From an uncultured Bacteroidota bacterium (GTDB taxonomy: Bacteria; Bacteroidota; Bacteroidia; Flavobacteriales_F; PHOS-HE28), in the NCBI GenBank assembly GCA_902826215.1, contig CADEDY010000003.1:275299-339298 (forward strand): a stretch of 64,000 bases of DNA, in the 5' to 3' direction. Under the pieces are notes generated by a model. It had not been told where the DNA came from. It worked only from the letters and a program-made list of their open reading frames with translations, and made no database searches. The translations under genes and the position numbers were made by a program. Positions 2,812-12,685 of the stretch are shown here, piece after piece; the stretch's first letter is position 1; every line of letters begins with the position of its first letter.

Positions 2812-3431
2812 GCACCCCTTCGATCCCCGAATTCATCGACCGCTATGCCGGATCCATGCACTCCTTGCTGGATGGTATCAGCGCCAGCAATGCCAATGGT
2901 CCATTGCCCTACGCGCAGGCGATCGAACATGCTGTGGAAATGGTGCGCGTGGCACAAGCGGCCAACCGTAAAGTGATCATGGTGGGGAATGGCGGAAGCG
3001 CGGGCATCGCCAGTCATCAAGCCGTGGATTATTGGAAGAACGGAGGTGTGCGGGCGATCGCATTCAATGATGCCAGTCTGCTCACCTGCATCAGCAACGA
3101 CCTCAGCTTCGAGGAGGTCTTCAGCGCACCCATCGGTCGTTTCGCCGACCCGGAGGATATCGTCTTTGCGATCAGCAGCAGCGGCTCGTCGAAGAACATC
3201 CTCAATGCGGCCGAGGCTGCTTGCCGTGCGGGATGTCGCTTGATCACCTTCAGTGGATTCCTCCCCGATAACACGTTGCGTTGCCAAGGGGACCTCAACT
3301 TCCATGTGGCCAGCGAGAGCTACGGGTTGGTCGAGATCCTTCACCTTTACATCATCCATACCATCCTCGATGCGAAGCTGCAGTGCTTCGATGCGCGGGA
3401 TATCTTCGACCGGAACAAGCCTGTATCATGA
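2808..3431 (+). CDS. SIS-domain sugar isomerase, GmhA-like (phosphoheptose isomerase family)
   Basis: A 207-residue protein that is a single SIS domain. The phosphosugar-binding loop GNGGSAGIASH lies near residue 60, and the second SIS signature SSSGSSKNIL near residue 125. GmhA converts sedoheptulose 7-phosphate to heptose 7-phosphate; length and motif order fit that family, although the residues after GNGGSA differ from the usual GmhA pattern. The ATG at 2808 is chosen because it overlaps the upstream stop (ATGA) and starts directly before the conserved domain. It sits between the HldE-like gene and a T9SS adhesin gene, with 4-bp overlaps on both sides. Confidence 0.82.
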   Translation: MSTPSIPEFIDRYAGSMHSLLDGISASNANGPLPYAQAIEHAVEMVRVAQAANRKVIMVGNGGSAGIASHQAVDYWKNGGVRAIAFNDASLLTCISNDLSFEEVFSAPIGRFADPEDIVFAISSSGSSKNILNAAEAACRAGCRLITFSGFLPDNTLRCQGDLNFHVASESYGLVEILHLYIIHTILDAKLQCFDARDIFDRNKPVS

Positions 3432-6400
3432 GCCATTTCGTCCTCAGGTCCTTTGCTCTTTTGAACGTGCTTTGGTGCACGTTCGCGTCGTTCGGTCAGA
3501 CGTACTCGAACGCCATTGGAACACCGTTCCGGAACGAAGCCGGGCACGTGCTCCATCGCTCCGCCGCTGGTGATACGTACATCGGTGGAAGTGTTGGTGA
3601 CAGTGCAGTCGTGATGCAGTTGGATGTGAACGGTGGAGTGGTCTGGTCGAGGGCCTTCCGAACAGCGGGGCAGTATCCGAAGATGGTGTTGCACATCACC
3701 GATGCGCCCGATGGAACCCTGATCGGCTGCGGTTCAGGTATCATGGGGAACCAGGAACTCGCTGAGGGTTTCTATTTCCGGTTCGACGCGGCAGGGAATT
3801 TCTTCTGGGTCCGTTCCTGGGAGGACCCTACGATCTATGCACGACGTATCGTGGTTTCGGACCCGACCTCGTACGTTGTCTTCGGCGGGATCGAGAATGT
3901 GACGGCTCCCACCTACCGGGATCTCGTGAACGCCTATGTGGATGCCGCCACTGGTGATCTGATCGGATTCACTGATCGGATGGATCTGTATGACGCATTA
4001 CCGTACTTCGATGAGATCAGAGGTGTGGTCCGGATCAACCAGCGGAATTATGGGGTCTCTTCGTTCTCAACAGGAGCAGCCGCACTTTCGGGACGTCGGA
4101 TCATGCTCACCACTTTCGATGAGTTCGGGCAATTGGTCGACACGCGTTACCTCGTCTTTCCGGACAATGTGGATCGACGCATCTATCCATCGGACATCGT
4201 GGCGAAGGACGATTCACTGACGATCGCCTATTACGGAGACATCAATGGATCGTCCACCAACTGGTCCGTTGGTTTGATCCGTTGCGACACGCTCGGCAAT
4301 ATCGCATGGGCAAGGGATTTCAACTTGGCAGGTAGTGGTCAAGAGCACAGCACACGTGTACTTGCGACAGCATCGGGGTATATCCTTGCCGGTCGCACCA
4401 TGACCACCGTGCCGAACAAGCTTTTCCTGATGTCCATATCGGATTCCGGGGTGGGCCAATGGTACAAGTCCTACGGCGGCATTTTCCAAGAACAGAGCCT
4501 CGTCGAGAACTATGCGTACAACATTGCCGACATGGGCAACGGCTACTTGCTCACCGGTTACACGAACCAGACCGGCGATCGGGACATCTTCTTGGTGCGG
4601 ACCAATGAAGAAGGCGAGATCTTCTGTGACGAGTACACCGATCGATCAGCGATCACCACGGTGCTGCCAACCTTCACTTTCCCGGCAAATGCGCAGCTGA
4701 TACCGTTCGTTGCGAACCAGGAGATCGCTCAGCCGGTGGTGGGTGATGCCGAGGTGCTCGATTCTTGCGTCGTGAACGTGACCCTGGGCAACGACACGGC
4801 GCTGTGCGGCACACTTGATCTGGATGCCACCACCCTGAACGCCACCTACCTCTGGAGCGATGGATCGACGGCCGCCACCTATACCGCTACCACGTCGGGT
4901 ACCTACTGGGTCCAGGTCACGGTCGCCTGCTGTATCGGATCGGACACGATCGTCGTGGATCTTGGCGTCACGGCGAACATCGACCTTGGACCGGATACGG
5001 CGCTTTGTCCATTGGAGGAATTGGTCCTTCAGCCGGCCACCGGAGCGTGGACGCTCACATGGCAGGACGGCACCACCGACCCGGAGTACATCGTGTACGA
5101 ACCGGGCACGTATTGGGTGGATGCCAGCGATGGACCGTGCGTGGTAACAGATACGATCGTTGTGAGCGCATTGCTTCTTCCTACGCTGAGTTTCGGGAAC
5201 GATACGGTATCGTGCAATGGCACGGGGGTTCTCCTTGATCCCGGTGCCACGGATGTCGAAGATTATGTGTGGAGTGATGGAAGTGCCGGAAGCACCTTGC
5301 AGGTGGATTCGACGCTATCCGTTTCGCTCACGGTGAGCAATCAATGCGGTAGTGCATTTGATGATATCGAGGTCACCATCATCGAGCCCATAACCGTTGA
5401 TATCGGACCGGACACCACGCTTTGCACCGGGAACGATTACACCTTGACGGCCGACGTGCCCGCAGGGTGGGACTGGGCCTGGTCCAATGGCTTGGCCGAT
5501 GCCACCTTCACGATCACCGGACCGGGGACCTACTGGTTGGATGTCGGGCAGGCAGGTTGCATCCTCACCGATTCGTTGTTCGTGGAAGGTCTAGCACCAC
5601 CGTTGATCGACCTTGGGCCGGATACGGTTGTCTGCGACGGCGGTGATCTTTTGTTAGCTCCGGTTCTGGTCGATGTGGAGGAAGTCCTTTGGTCGGATGG
5701 CAGCACGGGCGATGAATTCACGGCAACTACATCCGGCATCTATTCGATCACGGTGACGAATATCTGCGGCAGCACAAGTGATGCGATCGATATCACCCTC
5801 GTGGATCCCGTTGCGATCTCCTTGGGTGCCGATACAGTGCTCTGTGCAGGAGATAGTTTGATCATCGACCTGTCGGCCACAGGTGCAACGGTTACGTGGA
5901 GTGATGGAAGCCAAGCCAGCAGCTACATCGTTGATGTACCGGGTACGATCTACGCGGATGTCGTTCTGAGCGGCTGTATCGCTTCCGATACATTGGTGGT
6001 TGCTTACGACACCTTGCAGGTCGTGCATCTGGGGCCCGATACCGTGTTGTGTGCCGTGTTCGATTACACGTTGGATGCCGGGGATGACAATGCGCGCTGG
6101 CAGGATGGATCGGTTGGATCGACCTTCAGCGCCACGCGGACCGATTGGTACATCGCTGCGGTCACGAGCTACTGTGGGACTGCAGTGGATAGTGCGCGTG
6201 TGTCCTTCGAAGTCCCAACGGATCCGCTGGAGGACATTGCATTGTGCCCGGGAACCAAGGTGGAATTGGACCCGCAAGGAGAGCTTATCCAGACCTTATG
6301 GAGCAACGGCGACTCGACACGCACCATCACCGTAGGCGAAGGGGATTACAGCTACGAAGCCATCGACATTTACGGTTGTCCGCATTCCGATTCAGTGGAG

Positions 6401-6706
6401 GTACGGATCTTCTCCCGGTCCGATGGGATCGTATACGTGCCCAATGCATTCACACCGAACAAGGATGGACTGAACGATGGCTTCTTCGTTCAGGGCCCGG
6501 AAGCGGGAGACTTCGAACTCCTGATCCACGACCGCTGGGGCCGCGAAGTGTATAGCACGATCGACCCGTACAAGGCGTGGGACGGAAGCTCTGGTGGTCA
6601 AGAAGCACCGCAGGATGTCTACATCTACACGGTCTCTTACCTGGATCGGTGCAACGCGAACGGCACCATGGTGAGCGCTCGGGGTCACGTCACGTTGCTA
6701 CGCTGA
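3428..6706 (+). CDS. Large secreted repeat protein with T9SS type B (gliding motility-associated) C-terminal domain
   Basis: A 1092-residue protein. A signal peptide (about residues 1-22) ends at FASFGQ. Residues about 25-450 are a beta-rich region with recurring GG/GNG turns, probably a propeller-like domain. From about 450 to 990 come eight Ig/PKD-like repeats of 67-70 residues, each opening with a GxDTxLC-type motif. The last ~90 residues are a type B sorting domain: VPNAFTPNKDGLNDGF, an HDRWGREVY strand and a terminal VTLLR. It should be exported by the T9SS and be surface-attached or released. The ATG at 3428 overlaps the stop of the SIS isomerase gene (ATGA), an unusual coupling between a sugar enzyme and an adhesin-like protein. 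Confidence 0.88.
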   Translation: MSHFVLRSFALLNVLWCTFASFGQTYSNAIGTPFRNEAGHVLHRSAAGDTYIGGSVGDSAVVMQLDVNGGVVWSRAFRTAGQYPKMVLHITDAPDGTLIGCGSGIMGNQELAEGFYFRFDAAGNFFWVRSWEDPTIYARRIVVSDPTSYVVFGGIENVTAPTYRDLVNAYVDAATGDLIGFTDRMDLYDALPYFDEIRGVVRINQRNYGVSSFSTGAAALSGRRIMLTTFDEFGQLVDTRYLVFPDNVDRRIYPSDIVAKDDSLTIAYYGDINGSSTNWSVGLIRCDTLGNIAWARDFNLAGSGQEHSTRVLATASGYILAGRTMTTVPNKLFLMSISDSGVGQWYKSYGGIFQEQSLVENYAYNIADMGNGYLLTGYTNQTGDRDIFLVRTNEEGEIFCDEYTDRSAITTVLPTFTFPANAQLIPFVANQEIAQPVVGDAEVLDSCVVNVTLGNDTALCGTLDLDATTLNATYLWSDGSTAATYTATTSGTYWVQVTVACCIGSDTIVVDLGVTANIDLGPDTALCPLEELVLQPATGAWTLTWQDGTTDPEYIVYEPGTYWVDASDGPCVVTDTIVVSALLLPTLSFGNDTVSCNGTGVLLDPGATDVEDYVWSDGSAGSTLQVDSTLSVSLTVSNQCGSAFDDIEVTIIEPITVDIGPDTTLCTGNDYTLTADVPAGWDWAWSNGLADATFTITGPGTYWLDVGQAGCILTDSLFVEGLAPPLIDLGPDTVVCDGGDLLLAPVLVDVEEVLWSDGSTGDEFTATTSGIYSITVTNICGSTSDAIDITLVDPVAISLGADTVLCAGDSLIIDLSATGATVTWSDGSQASSYIVDVPGTIYADVVLSGCIASDTLVVAYDTLQVVHLGPDTVLCAVFDYTLDAGDDNARWQDGSVGSTFSATRTDWYIAAVTSYCGTAVDSARVSFEVPTDPLEDIALCPGTKVELDPQGELIQTLWSNGDSTRTITVGEGDYSYEAIDIYGCPHSDSVEVRIFSRSDGIVYVPNAFTPNKDGLNDGFFVQGPEAGDFELLIHDRWGREVYSTIDPYKAWDGSSGGQEAPQDVYIYTVSYLDRCNANGTMVSARGHVTLLR
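4784..6410 (+). repeat. Eight tandem coding repeats of about 201-210 bp
   Basis: Repeat units inside the T9SS protein begin near 4784, 4985, 5192, 5402, 5612, 5822, 6029 and 6230. The step is always 201-210 bp, a multiple of three. Each encodes LGxDTxLC, then a W-SDG/W-DG strand, then a GTYW/ATTSG strand, the usual layout of Ig-like beta-sandwich repeats in T9SS substrates. Units are clearly related at protein level but diverged at DNA level. Confidence 0.85.
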
Positions 6707-6710
6707 TCCG

Positions 6711-7133
6711 TCACTTCGGCTCGCGGATCCAGGTTTGGGTCCGGTAGAAGAAGGCGACGTAGCCGCGTACTTTCAAGACACCGTTCTCCAACCAGAACTT
6801 GCAATCATAGACCTTGCCATTGGCGGGATCCATGATCGTTCCATCGACCCATTCATTGCCTTCGCGCACCATGTTGCGGATGATCTCCATACCCATCACC
6901 TTCTTTCCCTTTCGATCGTCGGGACAGATGTGGCAAATAGGGTCTTGGTCTTCATTTGGTCCGCGGAACAAGTGAACGACATGACCAGTAGCCACTCCAT
7001 TCTTCACATTGATCTCCACGACAGAGCGCTTCTTTCCTGTTTCATCGTTCACCGTGATCCAACGTCCGGTGATGTCCTGCGCCAAGACCGTGCAACCGAC
7101 CAGCATCCATAAGGTCAGAACGACGGTACGCAT
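6711..7133 (-). CDS. DUF2147 family exported protein
   Basis: A 140-residue protein with a signal peptide (MRTVVLTLWMLVGCTVLAQ). The DUF2147 signatures are clear: ITGRWITVNDETGKKRSVVEI near the N terminus, CHICPDD, GMEIIRNM, the GTIMDPANGKVYDCKFWLEN block and KVRGYVAF. The family is exported, small and beta-barrel-like, with no firm biochemical role. It starts 3 bp after the stop of the M1 peptidase-barrel gene on the same strand, so the two are almost certainly cotranscribed, and it may act in the same envelope compartment. Confidence 0.88.
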   Translation of the reverse strand: MRTVVLTLWMLVGCTVLAQDITGRWITVNDETGKKRSVVEINVKNGVATGHVVHLFRGPNEDQDPICHICPDDRKGKKVMGMEIIRNMVREGNEWVDGTIMDPANGKVYDCKFWLENGVLKVRGYVAFFYRTQTWIREPK

Positions 7134-7136
7134 GGA

Positions 7137-10100
7137 TCAGAAGTTCCGGCCGATGGCGACAACATATCGGAACGCTACGTTGTCCGTCTCCGTTGCCGGT
7201 AGCGATGATAGGACCAACGGCATGTCGAAGCGTATGGTGAGTGGTTTGATATCCACCAAGGGTCCCCACTTCTTGATCGTCAATGCAGCACCGATCCCAG
7301 CATCGGCACGTGGGTCAGCCAGTTGCAATTGCTCTCCATTGGCGGATACCGTGCGGTACCCCATCATGCCGACATCGCCGAAGAGGTACACATCCATGTG
7401 CAGGTAGCGCGCCACCTTTCCCGGCCGGAAAGCCAGTAGACCATCCAGGTCCAATTCACCGGAGGCCGAGATACCGGTATTCCCACGGTAGGTCTGGATC
7501 ACCTGTCCGTCGCTATCCAACTCCGGAGCAACGTAGCCCGCATAACCGCGCAGCCCGAGACCACCGCCCTGTTGGAAGTGTTGCACATTGGCGCCATAAC
7601 CCAACCAGTCATAGGGCACCAGACCGATGCTGCGCACATACTTGTTCTCCATCATTTCCTCGGGTGAAGCACCAGCGAGGTACAACGCGATTTCGCGCGG
7701 TGTGTTGCCCGAACCGAATTGACCGAATGCACGGGTCCGGAACTGCAGCTTTCCAAGATCATTCGTGTTCACCGCCGTGAGCTTGACCTGAGCATAGTTC
7801 GAACCCGAACCCACCGCACTGTTGCGTAGCTCCAGTTTCAGATCCCCACGCCCGTGCGAATAGTCGTATCGGTGATGAAGGCTCACATCCAACGCCCCGT
7901 TCAAGCGGTTCAGTTCCCATTGATCCGGATAAAGTAGGTAGGTTAGATCAGCACTATCGCGACGGATGAAATAGATGAGTTCCGCCTGCACCTCCGTCTT
8001 CCGGTTAGGTAGGTCCCAATGCCAGCCACCACCATAGCGATCCAGACCATCGAGCAACCGAGCGTACACGAAGACCGATGAGCCCTTGAGGATCTTCTCC
8101 GTTCCATTCTCGTAGCGGAAGTTGAACGAGAAAGGGTCGTAGCCGGTGTCCGTATTCCCGGGGATCGGATCGAACTGCCGACTGGCGTTGTTCGGGGGCA
8201 GGGATTGCCCCATGCCGGTGTTCAACCAACCGCTGAAGTGGATGCGATGCTTGTACTTCATGTACGAGCTGTTCAGGTGCACCCCGGCCTTCACGCCATC
8301 GTAACCGTTCCACCACAGGTCGGGTCGCACGAAGGCTTCGTAGTTCTTGCGATCAGGTCGTTGGCGAATGTGGTGATCGAACCCCACGCTGATGGGCAAC
8401 ACCATGTGGTCGTTCACCTTGTATGCATCGGCAAGTCGGTTCGTGGGATCGATGGTCACTTGGGCGATACCCGAAGGAATGTCGACGTGAACGATGTGGT
8501 CCCGTTCCAGTTCGTCGTAGCCGATCCAGCGCGGAAGCACGGTTGCTGAAGTCTTCTTTTCGAACCAGGTATTCGGGACCAGGAAGTCATGGATCGTTCC
8601 ATCACGCGCCTCCACCCGCAGATCGATCGGCATGTGCAGGTCGCCTTTGCGTCGCAGATGTATGGTCTGTCCGGCATCCTTGTGCTTTCCGGTAACGCCT
8701 CGAACGGCATAGTCGATCCGCTTGTCCGTCTCGATCCATTGATCGAAGAACCAGTTGAGGTCGACCTTCGTGAAATGGATGATGCTCGCTCGCATATCCT
8801 CTGGATAGGGATGGCAGATCTTCCATTGCATCACGTAGTGCTGCATGGCGGCCAAGAAGAGGGAATCACCCAGGACGTATTGCAGGTTGTAGAGCATCGT
8901 GGCCGTCTTGTCATACACGTGCCCATACCCGCGCCCGAGACCTTCTACATGTCCGAACTCGTCGCTGTGCGTATTGATCGGTGGCAACTGATCCCGCACG
9001 GCATCCCGCTGGTAGCTGTAATACACCTCTTCTTCCCGTGGTTGTATCGGTTCAGTGTAGCGCGCTTCGTAACGGGTACTTGGCGGATCCACGACCATGG
9101 TGTCCCCATCGATGTGCTCCAATCCCCAAGCGGTTAGGAACTGGGTGAAGCCTTCGTCCAGAAAAGCGCGGTAGGTCTCGTTGTTCCCCAGCATGCCGAA
9201 GAACCAGTTGTGACCCACCTCGTGGGCAAGGAGTCCACGGTAGTCCGGGTCACGCCCACCATCCAACGTGAGCATCGGGTACTCCATACCGTCGCGTGCG
9301 TCCGCAACGATCATCTTCGGGTAGGCATACATCCCGAAGTCACGGCTGTAACAGGCGATCACCTTCGCCGTATAGTCCGCAGCGTTCTGCCATCCGCTGG
9401 CATGCGGCTCCTGAACGAGGGCGACACATTTGATGCCGTTCCATTCCGCCTCGCCGATGCGGTAGTTCGGGTCGGCGGTGAAGGCGAAGTCATGCACGTT
9501 CTCGGCGTGGTACTTCCACACCTTGCGTTTGCCGGGTTCAGGGGCTGTGATGACCGAGGGGGCTTCATTCCAGGGCTTATCCTTGAAATTGGCGATCGCG
9601 AGTTTCGCCTTCAGGTCGGCAGGGAGCACTTCCGCTTCGTTCTGGAGCCAGCCCGTGGCATCGAGCACATAGTGGTGCGGGAAGTCGAGGTCCACATCGA
9701 AGGTGCCGAAATCGCCATAGAACTCGCTGCCGAGGTGTTGTTGCGTGTCCCACCCGAAGCGATCGTCATACACCGCGATACGTGGGTACCAGTGCACGCC
9801 GTCATAGTGTTTGGCTCCCCAACCTTTGAAGAGCTTCATGCGCCGATAGACATCCGTGGTCCAATGGGTGGTGAAATCGATCCGGAAGGTGGTGCGTTCG
9901 TTCGGTGCAAGGGGTGTATTGAGCCAGACCTTCAGCACCGTGTTGTCCTGCTCCTGGCGCAAGTCCAAACCATCGGCAGCCAACGAATTGATCCGCGTTC
10001 CCGCATAGGCCACTTCACCCTTCTTGGTCTTTCGCAGGCCACCTTCCATGCGATCCAGATACGATCCGTGCACAAAGGCCTCCTGGTAGAGGTGGAAGAA

Positions 10101-10361
10101 CACGAAGCGCAAGGTGTCCGGTGAATTGTTCACGTACGTCAGTGCCGATGTTCCGTGGATCTGATCGGTCGCATCGTCCATGCGCGCTTTGATCACGTAA
10201 TGGACGTCCTGCTGCCAATAGCCCGGGCGCGGTGGTCTGTTCTTCCAGTACAGGGGATTGTCCGCGTTGCGGTACGTGTTCGGTGGATGTTTGGCATCGA
10301 AAGGCTGCGCCTGGGCGATGGATCCGAAGAACAGGAACGAGGCGAGAAGTAGGGTCCGCAT
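7137..10361 (-). CDS. M1-family metallopeptidase fused to a C-terminal Omp85-like outer-membrane beta-barrel
   Basis: A 1074-residue protein. The start MRTLLLASF opens a signal peptide that ends at AQAQ; five codons further upstream is another ATG. Residues about 30-560 are an M1 aminopeptidase-type domain: the GMEYPML variant of the GAMEN substrate loop (358-364), zinc motif HEVGH (380-384), the third zinc ligand Glu403 in FLDEGF, and a YDKTATMLY segment later. M1 proteins in this phylum are often 550-900 residues. Here another ~390 residues (from about 680) alternate polar and hydrophobic residues like barrel strands. They include GGGLGLRGY (RGY at 938-940), an LFGDVG segment and a terminal FRYVVAIGRNF. 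That matches the Omp85 barrel pattern, with the RGF/RGY lid motif and a terminal Phe beta-signal. I saw no POTRA domain. The peptidase would be tethered at the outer membrane. Confidence 0.8.
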   Translation of the reverse strand: MRTLLLASFLFFGSIAQAQPFDAKHPPNTYRNADNPLYWKNRPPRPGYWQQDVHYVIKARMDDATDQIHGTSALTYVNNSPDTLRFVFFHLYQEAFVHGSYLDRMEGGLRKTKKGEVAYAGTRINSLAADGLDLRQEQDNTVLKVWLNTPLAPNERTTFRIDFTTHWTTDVYRRMKLFKGWGAKHYDGVHWYPRIAVYDDRFGWDTQQHLGSEFYGDFGTFDVDLDFPHHYVLDATGWLQNEAEVLPADLKAKLAIANFKDKPWNEAPSVITAPEPGKRKVWKYHAENVHDFAFTADPNYRIGEAEWNGIKCVALVQEPHASGWQNAADYTAKVIACYSRDFGMYAYPKMIVADARDGMEYPMLTLDGGRDPDYRGLLAHEVGHNWFFGMLGNNETYRAFLDEGFTQFLTAWGLEHIDGDTMVVDPPSTRYEARYTEPIQPREEEVYYSYQRDAVRDQLPPINTHSDEFGHVEGLGRGYGHVYDKTATMLYNLQYVLGDSLFLAAMQHYVMQWKICHPYPEDMRASIIHFTKVDLNWFFDQWIETDKRIDYAVRGVTGKHKDAGQTIHLRRKGDLHMPIDLRVEARDGTIHDFLVPNTWFEKKTSATVLPRWIGYDELERDHIVHVDIPSGIAQVTIDPTNRLADAYKVNDHMVLPISVGFDHHIRQRPDRKNYEAFVRPDLWWNGYDGVKAGVHLNSSYMKYKHRIHFSGWLNTGMGQSLPPNNASRQFDPIPGNTDTGYDPFSFNFRYENGTEKILKGSSVFVYARLLDGLDRYGGGWHWDLPNRKTEVQAELIYFIRRDSADLTYLLYPDQWELNRLNGALDVSLHHRYDYSHGRGDLKLELRNSAVGSGSNYAQVKLTAVNTNDLGKLQFRTRAFGQFGSGNTPREIALYLAGASPEEMMENKYVRSIGLVPYDWLGYGANVQHFQQGGGLGLRGYAGYVAPELDSDGQVIQTYRGNTGISASGELDLDGLLAFRPGKVARYLHMDVYLFGDVGMMGYRTVSANGEQLQLADPRADAGIGAALTIKKWGPLVDIKPLTIRFDMPLVLSSLPATETDNVAFRYVVAIGRNF

Positions 10362-10391
10362 GGGTAACGGTACCAAGATATTCCTTCCCCT

Positions 10392-11351
10392 TCAGGCCAA
10401 GGCCGACTTGGGTGATTTGAGGTTCTCCCGACGGAGCCGCCGTGCCCGCATGATGCTGGTGTTCAGTTCGTAACCGATCAACAGCACGATCATGTTCATA
10501 TAGATCCACAATTGCACGGCGAGGATGGCACCGATTGAACCGTACAGCGCATTGTAATCGGTGATGTTGGAGAAAACGAAGGCCAGTGCCTGGGAAACGA
10601 CCAGGATCAGGATCACTGCCAGGATCGCGCCCGGAGTGAACATCCGGAAGCGGCGCGTGCTCGGGTCACCAGCGTAATAAAGCAGCGATACGAAGAGAAT
10701 GACCGCAAGTGTGGAGACCACCCATTTTGCAAGGAACAGAGAAGCCACTTCGAAGTAACTGGCGAAGAACCCGATGGAGTCCAATTTGTAGATCAGGATA
10801 CCGCTCAAGGTGAGTGATGGTATAGCGATCATGGCAACCACGGTAAGCGCTAATAGAAGCCCAAGACTCAAGAGCCGCTGCTTGAGCGGGGAGTGCCAAC
10901 CGGCATGATTGGTACTGCCACTGAAACCCATCAGGATCGCATCGATACTGTTGCTCGCTGTGAACACACCGATTAGGAAGCTCAAGGAGAGCAATGTGCC
11001 GTGCTTCTTCACCAACAGGTCGTGCAGCGTGGATTCGATGAAATGGTAGACTTCCGGCGGCAGCATGTCGTGGAACGTCAGCAGCAACTTCGTTTGGAAG
11101 TCATTGATCGGGATGTACGGTATCATCGTGAGCAACACGATCACCCCAGGGAAGAAGGCCAGGAATACCTTGAAGGATATGGCGGCAGCGCGTGTGGTAA
11201 GATTGCCTTTCGCAAGAGCGCCGAAGAAGAACCGGGAGATCTCGTAGATGCTGAAGCCTTCGAAGCCGGGCAGGATGATGCGTCGAGCCCATCCGATGAG
11301 GCGTCGGGTCATTCGCGAGTAGAGCAGCTTTCGTTTCAGCCGTTCGAACAT
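10392..11351 (-). CDS. YihY/BrkB family inner-membrane protein
   Basis: A 319-residue protein with about six predicted membrane helices. It shows the hallmarks of the YihY (BrkB) family: GNLTTRAAAISFKVFLAFFPG at the first helix, YYAGDPSTRRFR after the fourth, and NALYGSIGAILAVQLWIYMNMIVLLIGYELN-type helices at the end. The short basic C-terminal tail is cytoplasmic. The family's biochemical role is unsettled; it is not RNase BN, despite older names. It starts 3 bp after the stop of nadC and lies 30 bp before the M1 peptidase gene, all on the minus strand. Confidence 0.88.
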   Translation of the reverse strand: MFERLKRKLLYSRMTRRLIGWARRIILPGFEGFSIYEISRFFFGALAKGNLTTRAAAISFKVFLAFFPGVIVLLTMIPYIPINDFQTKLLLTFHDMLPPEVYHFIESTLHDLLVKKHGTLLSLSFLIGVFTASNSIDAILMGFSGSTNHAGWHSPLKQRLLSLGLLLALTVVAMIAIPSLTLSGILIYKLDSIGFFASYFEVASLFLAKWVVSTLAVILFVSLLYYAGDPSTRRFRMFTPGAILAVILILVVSQALAFVFSNITDYNALYGSIGAILAVQLWIYMNMIVLLIGYELNTSIMRARRLRRENLKSPKSALA

Positions 11352-11354
11352 CGC

Positions 11355-12203
11355 TCACAGGGCTTTCAGGCTCAGATCGAGGCTTTGTACCGAATGCGTA
11401 AGGGCGCCAATGGAGATGTAGTCCACTCCGGTTTCGGCGAAGCTGCGCGCGGTTTCCAAGGTTATGCCACCAGAGGCCTCGGTCTCGAAACGTCGGTCGA
11501 TCAGCTTAACAGCTTCGCGCATCAGTTGCGGTGTGAAATTGTCCAGCATGATGCGCTGTACGCCACCGGTCGAAAGCACTTGTTGAACCTCATCAAGGTT
11601 CCTGGTCTCCACTTCGATGGGCAGCTGTTTGCAGCCCCGGGTCAAGTATTCGTTCGCCGCTTTGATCGCCTTGGGTATGCCACCTGCGAAATCGTGGTGG
11701 TTATCCTTGATCATGATCATGTCGTAGAGCCCCATGCGGTGGTTGTGCCCGCCGCCGAGCCGCACGGCCCATTTCTCAAGACCACGCAGGCCCGGTGTGG
11801 TCTTTCGTGTATCCAGTACACGACAACCTGTCCCATCCACCGCCTCGACGAATCGGTGCGTCAGGGTCGCGATACCGCTCATGCGCTGCATGAAGTTCAG
11901 CATGATGCGTTCCACCTGCAGGATGCTGCGCGAGGGCCCCATCATGTTGAAGGCGATATCGCCTTTCTTCACCGTGGCTCCATCCTCCAAGTAGATGCGC
12001 AGGGTTATCGACGGGTCGAAATGGTGGGCGATGGCTTGCGCGAGTTCAACGCCAGCGAGAATGCCATCATCCTTCACCAACAAACGCGCAGCGCCTTTCG
12101 CATCGGCTGGGATGGTGCTCAGCGAGGTATGGTCCCCATCGCCGATGTCCTCGCGAAAAGCGAGTGCAATGAGTTCTTCGGTGCCGGTGGGTAGCACGAT
12201 CAA
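11355..12203 (-). CDS. nadC: Nicotinate-nucleotide pyrophosphorylase (carboxylating), quinolinate phosphoribosyltransferase
   Basis: A 282-residue enzyme of de novo NAD synthesis that joins quinolinate with PRPP to give nicotinate mononucleotide, CO2 and PPi. Family landmarks are present: EDIGDGDHTS near residue 20, the ERIMLNFMQRMSGIAT segment, RVLDTRKTTPGLR, the GGGHNHRMGLYDMIMIKDNH block, EVETRNLDE and a late EASGGI loop. Length is normal. The start overlaps the stop of the upstream DUF4783 gene by 4 bp, so the two are coupled. No nadA or nadB is in the window. Confidence 0.95.
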   Translation of the reverse strand: MIVLPTGTEELIALAFREDIGDGDHTSLSTIPADAKGAARLLVKDDGILAGVELAQAIAHHFDPSITLRIYLEDGATVKKGDIAFNMMGPSRSILQVERIMLNFMQRMSGIATLTHRFVEAVDGTGCRVLDTRKTTPGLRGLEKWAVRLGGGHNHRMGLYDMIMIKDNHHDFAGGIPKAIKAANEYLTRGCKQLPIEVETRNLDEVQQVLSTGGVQRIMLDNFTPQLMREAVKLIDRRFETEASGGITLETARSFAETGVDYISIGALTHSVQSLDLSLKAL

Positions 12204-12610
12204 AAGTCGTTCTTACTGTTCTCGATGCGCAACTGCTTCACTTGGAAGACCGCATCCGTCTTCTTCAAGAAGAAAGTGACGCGGAAATAACCCGTGGAGG
12301 TGCGTAGGATGCCGATGAAGTACTTGTCGCCCAGCTTGCTGACACCGGTATGCTCGATGACCAGGTCCACAGGTGGGTTGTCATTGAAGAACTTGCGGAC
12401 GATCTGCTCAGCCTGCGCTTTGCTGTACACATCGGAGGTCTCCTTGATCGTGAGGTCGATGTTGGGTATGAAGTGCACGGCCAGCTCTTTGGAGTTGCCC
12501 GTTCGCATGGCTTGTACCACCTTATCCTTCACATCATCCTGTGCACCCACGGCCAATGTGAGCAGCAGACTTGTGAGGAGGACGAACATTCGGTTCATCA
12601 CGTGCTTCAT
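12200..12610 (-). CDS. DUF4783 family exported protein
   Basis: A 136-residue protein when started at the ATG at 12610. That start gives a good signal peptide (MKHVMNRMFVLLTSLLLTLAVGAQ); ATGs further upstream add a non-secretory leader. The mature part fits the small exported DUF4783 family, common in Bacteroidota: repeated basic/hydrophobic strands, an NIDLTI segment, an EQIVRKFFNDNPP helix and a YFIGILRTSTGYFRVTFFLKK core. The fold resembles NTF2-like proteins; no function is known. The stop overlaps the nadC start by 4 bp. Its promoter should lie in the 75-bp gap shared with divergent rlmH. Confidence 0.78.
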   Translation of the reverse strand: MKHVMNRMFVLLTSLLLTLAVGAQDDVKDKVVQAMRTGNSKELAVHFIPNIDLTIKETSDVYSKAQAEQIVRKFFNDNPPVDLVIEHTGVSKLGDKYFIGILRTSTGYFRVTFFLKKTDAVFQVKQLRIENSKNDF

Positions 12611-12685
12611 TTGTTGCGAAATTTGGCAAATACCGGGCCAAGTTGAGCCCTTGATGCCCATGGAGTTACGAACACACATACGCCC

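Follow-up and report, generated by a model that had tools for sequence, protein, structure and literature searches.

The open reading frame at positions 7137-10361 of the window (the whole stretch of 64,000 nucleotides of Bacteroidota DNA that was analysed) is located on the minus strand and, according to the ORF call and its translation, encodes a protein of 1074 amino acids, in which an M1 metallopeptidase appears to be fused to an Omp85-like barrel. The gene starts with an ATG at 10361 and ends with a stop codon at 7137-7139; the plus-strand frame over the same positions is riddled with stops. These coordinates had been given correctly in an earlier note on this DNA, in which the strand had gone unstated. 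At the N-terminus of the M1-barrel protein lies a signal peptide (residues 1-18, MRTLLLASFLFFGSIAQA; 10308-10361, minus strand), which was read in the sequence, has a putative cleavage site, contains no lipobox and includes a helix (residues 2-16) in the AlphaFold2 model. It is followed, always on the minus strand, by an M1 peptidase module with N-terminal, catalytic and third (beta) domains, assigned from PF01433 and Foldseek (residues 20-655; 8397-10304), by a linker to the first barrel strand, the length of which is fixed among the fused relatives (residues 656-673; 8343-8396), and by a predicted 16-stranded Omp85-like outer-membrane barrel, assigned from AlphaFold2 strands, strand alternation and profile comparison (residues 674-1074; 7140-8342).

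The gene is part of a head-to-tail array, DUF4783-nadC-yihY-M1barrel-DUF2147 (window 6711-12679, minus strand), with gaps of at most 30 bases. Its upstream neighbour encodes a YihY/BrkB-family membrane protein (10392-11351; PF03631, E 2e-46), which is preceded by nadC, encoding quinolinate phosphoribosyltransferase (11355-12203; PF01729/PF02749), and the downstream gene encodes a secreted DUF2147 protein (6711-7133; PF09917, E 3e-28), all three on the minus strand. The order nadC-yihY-M1barrel was seen again in distant lineages, far outside the genus. The neighbouring genes name no substrate for the M1-barrel protein. In many distant lineages (for example at L119:5707-6465, L126:5595-6356 and L152:5590-6342, plus strand) a gene for a secreted TPR protein (RMD1-3-like) lies directly downstream of the M1-barrel gene. 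This protein is a possible partner of the M1-barrel protein; as a conserved partner it was rejected, because its gene adjoins the M1-barrel gene in one lineage group only and is absent from the window's genus. Elsewhere in the window, positions 3281-6706 (plus strand) encode a long secreted repeat protein, the end of which resembles a gliding-motility/T9SS C-terminal domain. An Rfam scan of the window yielded no matches.

PF01433 matches residues 377-542 (E 3e-13), and a Pfam search with the whole protein yielded nothing beyond this family; NCBIfam gave weak M1 matches only. The residues expected of an M1 enzyme are strongly conserved. In the zinc site HEVGH (residues 380-384; 9210-9224, minus strand) both His are kept in 95 of 96 alignment rows and the Glu in all 96, as is the third zinc ligand E403 (9153-9155, minus strand). 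The motif DGMEY (residues 357-361; 9279-9293, minus strand; G-M-E-Y in 95 of 96 rows) is taken here to be the counterpart of the M1 GxMEN motif; compared with this exopeptidase motif, M-E is kept and Tyr replaces Asn. Y483 of a VYxK motif (8913-8915, minus strand; 95 of 96 rows) is presumably the M1 catalytic tyrosine. Of the 95 distinct full-length fused proteins which share the architecture, the window's included, 94 have an intact HExxH-(18)-E zinc site. One related locus (L083; G045:C20, about 186118-189000) has the same layout with REFE in place of HEHE and thus a lost zinc site, and with RGY, Glu and Asp of the barrel retained; judging from these replacements, it probably encodes a pseudoenzyme.

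An AlphaFold2 model, built from a 27-sequence alignment of relatives (pLDDT 85.2, pTM 0.83), lets residues 20-640 adopt the M1 fold, and in Foldseek the PDB entries matched best by this part were those of IRAP and ERAP1 (prob 1.00, lowest E 7e-23). The catalytic domain is followed by the third M1 beta domain (551-637) and the stand-alone M1 proteins of relatives stop at the equivalent of residues 664-669, from which it follows that the module reaches to about residue 655. The earlier note was right about a complete active site (HEVGH and Glu403), and its module of about 560 residues was too short. The helical fourth M1 domain (HEAT) is absent from the model. The protein resembles the M1 aminopeptidases PepN, LTA4H and ERAP1/IRAP in its HExxH...E site, its third beta domain and, putatively, its GxMEN-like DGMEY and its catalytic Tyr, but is predicted to carry a membrane barrel where those carry the helical fourth domain.

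From residue 674 onwards, 16 barrel strands were predicted in the model (674-685, 689-700, 704-714, 744-753, 761-770, 773-783, 789-799, 821-834, 837-848, 856-869, 872-885, 963-971, 987-1006, 1018-1029, 1041-1051 and 1067-1071). Their hydrophobic/polar alternation of 2.98 is about 7 sd above that of shuffled strands (1.25, sd 0.23). Modelled from its single sequence alone, the barrel gave no usable fold (pLDDT 32). The prediction thus bears out the C-terminal beta-barrel read earlier from the letters, with no M1 HEAT domain in its place; the terminal FRYVVAIGRNF and the LFGDVG segment (residues 993-998) had also been read correctly, and the GGGLGLRGY motif is present at residues 932-940 instead of 934-942. 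Between the M1 module and strand 1 the model contains no POTRA-like fold, only the all-beta third M1 domain, in agreement with what had been noted before.

GGGLGLRGY (7542-7568, minus strand) corresponds by model and conservation to the VRGF/Y of loop 6 in Omp85 proteins, its RGY (residues 938-940) lying in the long loop which joins strands 11 and 12. E969 in strand 12 (7455-7457, minus strand; 94 of 96 rows) is the counterpart of BamA E717, the Glu of Omp85 being registered here by hhalign, and YLFGDVG in strand 13 (residues 992-998; 7368-7388, minus strand; 95 of 96 rows) contains D996, the counterpart of BamA D740, which is likewise supported by the hhalign registration. All three of R938, E969 and D996 are retained in 93 of the 95 distinct fused proteins, among which GGL.RGY, E969, Y992, F994, D996, G998 and the terminal F are nearly invariant. 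In BamA, the loop-6 RGF interacts with E717 of strand 12 and D740 of strand 13 (PMC3871556), and a salt bridge connects E717 with R661 (PMC12505904). By position and conservation, R938/E969/D996 are a predicted match to the BamA arrangement R661/E717/D740. The M1-barrel protein is thus similar to BamA/TamL in its 16 strands, its RGY loop 6, its Glu in strand 12 and its Asp in strand 13, but has an enzyme domain instead of POTRA domains and shows no sign of an assembly function.

Comparison of the barrel-family profile with Omp85 yielded an hhalign score of 53.0 (prob 86), with a shuffled maximum of 23.7, and paired RGY with RGY, Glu with Glu and the F-x-D-x-G strand with its Omp85 counterpart. 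The FadL family, used as a control, scored 16.2; with no similarity above shuffle level, kinship with FadL was rejected. DUF5686, considered as a possible relative, gave a weak score of 36.2. Compared directly, the sequences show only weak similarity to Omp85, most of it in the region from RGY to strand 14. When the stand-alone barrels were left out, the fused barrels scored only 33.6 against Omp85, once in a different register, which indicates that the Omp85 link, real as it appears from the profiles, is a remote one. Family searches point in the same direction. PF01103 matched the RGY region of one ortholog (L080, 1113-residue frame, G069:C23) with 23.1 bits (E 7.8e-5), 0.9 below the cut-off of 24 bits. 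TIGR03303 (BamA), the top NCBIfam family across 46 barrels, matched five of them, far below its cut-off (best E 3.2e-5) and with alignments covering the BamA barrel (e.g., profile 612-704 of 741). None of the barrels reached the curated cut-off of any barrel family, and the window's own barrel matched no Pfam or NCBIfam family. No solved Omp85 structure was retrieved when the barrel profile was run against PDB sequences (best E 0.43), and Foldseek with the full model gave only M1 entries among the matches listed. The proposal of the earlier note, a fusion of an M1 peptidase with a barrel of Omp85 type, is thus supported by the 16 strands, the RGY loop and the profile matches in relatives; the match of Omp85 profiles around RGY was obtained weakly, in relatives only and not with the window's own barrel.

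POTRA domains are usual in the Omp85/TpsB superfamily, but not universal. Heinz and Lithgow (2014) sorted Omp85/TpsB proteins into ten subfamilies, which include, in the accessible part of that work (PMC4104836), a patatin, a 'Metallo' (PF00149) and a noNterm subfamily. As the noNterm subfamily is likewise described there as lacking POTRA domains, their absence is no bar to membership. The 'Metallo' proteins resemble the M1-barrel protein in having an N-terminal enzyme-type domain ahead of an Omp85 barrel, but this domain is PF00149 (metallophosphoesterase family) and not peptidase M1, and the noNterm proteins, with barrel and signal peptide only, resemble the stand-alone relatives described below. 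In hhalign, short PF01103 proteins from the same genomes aligned to BamA-type barrels with prob 97 and to the M1-barrel family with prob 22, and long ones with prob 99 and 59, respectively; it was by length alone that these sets were assigned to the noNterm and 'Metallo' kinds. Their closeness to BamA-type barrels and their distance from the M1-barrel family argue for a separate, divergent branch, and by these profiles the M1-barrel family stands apart from the POTRA-less Omp85 proteins, assigned by length, of the same genomes.

Some match to the M1-barrel protein was found in 96 of 98 related genomes and the barrel half alone in 80 of them. A full length of about 1060-1110 residues is kept in many families of the class. 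When genome contigs were scanned, 485 related stretches were matched, and the 80 that were retained are all labelled as Bacteroidota. In six families (f49, f35, f14, f21, f40 and f50) the matches were mostly restricted to the tail of the M1 module or to short M1 proteins of roughly 600-650 residues, so that part of the class lacks the fusion. In family f65, which belongs to another lineage of the phylum, the barrel is encoded separately, as a protein of 400-465 residues with a signal peptide; in most loci that were read directly, its gene is flanked by a NUDIX gene and by acetate kinase. M1 proteins of roughly 630-690 residues are also encoded by themselves in these genomes, and the two that were read end at the equivalent of 668-669. 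Going by the sequences, stand-alone barrels and separate M1 proteins would fit with two working parts having been either joined or split. Stand-alone barrels of 400-465 residues without any Pfam family were seen at L166-L189, L193 and L186:2870-4150 (minus strand), with two in tandem in L186/L279.

A tree of M1 domains placed the fused proteins in one group (SH-aLRT 99), outside of which long and short forms are intermingled; like the commonness of short M1 proteins, this tempers the reading of joined or split parts. In one row of this tree (L026) the longest frame had been picked and is the wrong one, so that its long, outlying branch is an artefact and meaningless. The window's own genome encodes a second long M1 protein of 1027 residues (L003:124-3207, minus strand; G000:C3), which is conserved in relatives (L283-L298). 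Its C-terminal half is without RGY and its family aligns to the barrel family of the M1-barrel protein (hhalign prob 94); by this similarity it appears to be a second, more diverged M1-barrel fusion. Outside the class, in other lineages of the phylum, L165 and L303 are long M1 proteins with VRGY and an Asp strand motif; most other long M1 proteins of these lineages are without RGY.

The protein resembles PlpD of Pseudomonas aeruginosa, a patatin-like Omp85 protein once called 'type Vd', in which an N-terminal enzyme and a C-terminal 16-strand Omp85 barrel likewise form a single chain. It differs from PlpD in its zinc M1 peptidase in place of a patatin lipase, in the lack of POTRA domains and in a barrel whose sequence has no more than a remote relation to Omp85; the family hallmark, patatin domain plus POTRA, is not found in it. 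By analogy with type Vd, the earlier note had regarded the peptidase as a passenger, and a barrel which passes the M1 domain outside would yield a cell-surface or released peptidase. Such surface display would be in keeping with the order of enzyme and barrel, the architecture first called type Vd, and with the general habit of Bacteroidota of exporting many surface proteins. We nevertheless consider it unlikely and do not retain the passenger analogy. The patatin domain of PlpD has been demonstrated to remain periplasmic (PMC11116518). Moreover, from D645, the last conserved M1 motif, to the first strand (Y674) all fused relatives have a linker of 26-30 residues, most of which is also taken up in stand-alone M1 proteins, and a linker this short and of nearly fixed length argues against an exported passenger. 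Neither a lipobox nor a T9SS C-terminal domain was seen, the C-terminus being the last strand. In a barrel of 16 strands both ends lie on one side, which is periplasmic in Omp85 proteins. Based on the linker and the analogy to PlpD, it is most likely that the M1 domain faces the periplasm and is tethered to the outer membrane.

With the enzyme in the periplasm, the barrel could still be a regulated pore for the import or export of peptides, which the M1 domain trims at its periplasmic mouth. Omp85/TpsB relatives include translocators (PMC4104836), the enzyme directly adjoins the barrel mouth in the chain, stand-alone barrels exist in a related lineage, and L083, with its barrel kept and its zinc site lost, suggests that the barrel can matter without catalysis. 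Loop 6 with its conserved RGY latch should, however, fill the lumen, and a role as conduit thus appears rather doubtful. Just as doubtful is its extended form, in which the family would form a new subfamily of POTRA-less Omp85 proteins that branches deeply and belongs to Bacteroidota, with a gated peptide conduit coupled to trimming at the periplasmic mouth and also encoded alone in a sister lineage. Even less probable is an unrelated family of outer-membrane barrels which acquired its RGY loop by convergence. The weak and local nature of the direct similarity to Omp85 would allow for this, but the number of strands, the RGY placed between strands 11 and 12, and the Glu and Asp in strands 12 and 13 all coincide with BamA, and the profile score is far above shuffles and above FadL. 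That there is no outer-membrane barrel at all, and the C-terminal half is an extended soluble beta domain in place of the M1 C-terminal domain, might be argued from the barrel-family cut-offs that were never reached. Given 16 strands with membrane-type alternation far beyond that of shuffled strands, the terminal Phe, the signal peptide and stand-alone versions which have signal peptides as well, this appears highly improbable.

Altogether, we regard the protein as a likely active M1-type zinc (amino)peptidase which an Omp85-like barrel of its own anchors at the inner face of the outer membrane. The computed support consists of the signal peptide, the intact M1 site, the 16-strand amphipathic barrel, the RGY/Glu/Asp signature, the fixed linker and the conservation across many Bacteroidota families. 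The protein would be exported by Sec and its barrel inserted by BAM, which would place the M1 domain at that mouth of the barrel which opens to the periplasm; the barrel would thereby replace the helical lid domain that is present in many M1 enzymes. There, the M1 domain may trim peptides in the periplasm beside the outer membrane, candidate substrates being peptides taken up through the outer membrane or the breakdown products of envelope proteins. As for the barrel, it most likely descends from the Omp85 superfamily and serves as an anchor and scaffold, not as a working protein-insertion machine.

A fusion with an M1 peptidase is absent from the ten-subfamily scheme of Heinz and Lithgow, as laid out in the accessible part of PMC4104836. 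A literature search of incomplete coverage found no M1-Omp85 fusion either, which is only a lead. The M1-barrel proteins represent a widespread architecture in which a peptidase, and not POTRA domains, accompanies a barrel of apparent Omp85 type, and a family which is invisible as a barrel to Pfam and NCBIfam. By analogy with PlpD, they may add to the case for enzyme-Omp85 fusions that are periplasmic instead of secreted. Omp85-type barrels otherwise serve to build or to cross the outer membrane, and the M1-barrel protein offers a direct route to asking whether they can also be mere anchors for enzymes of the envelope.
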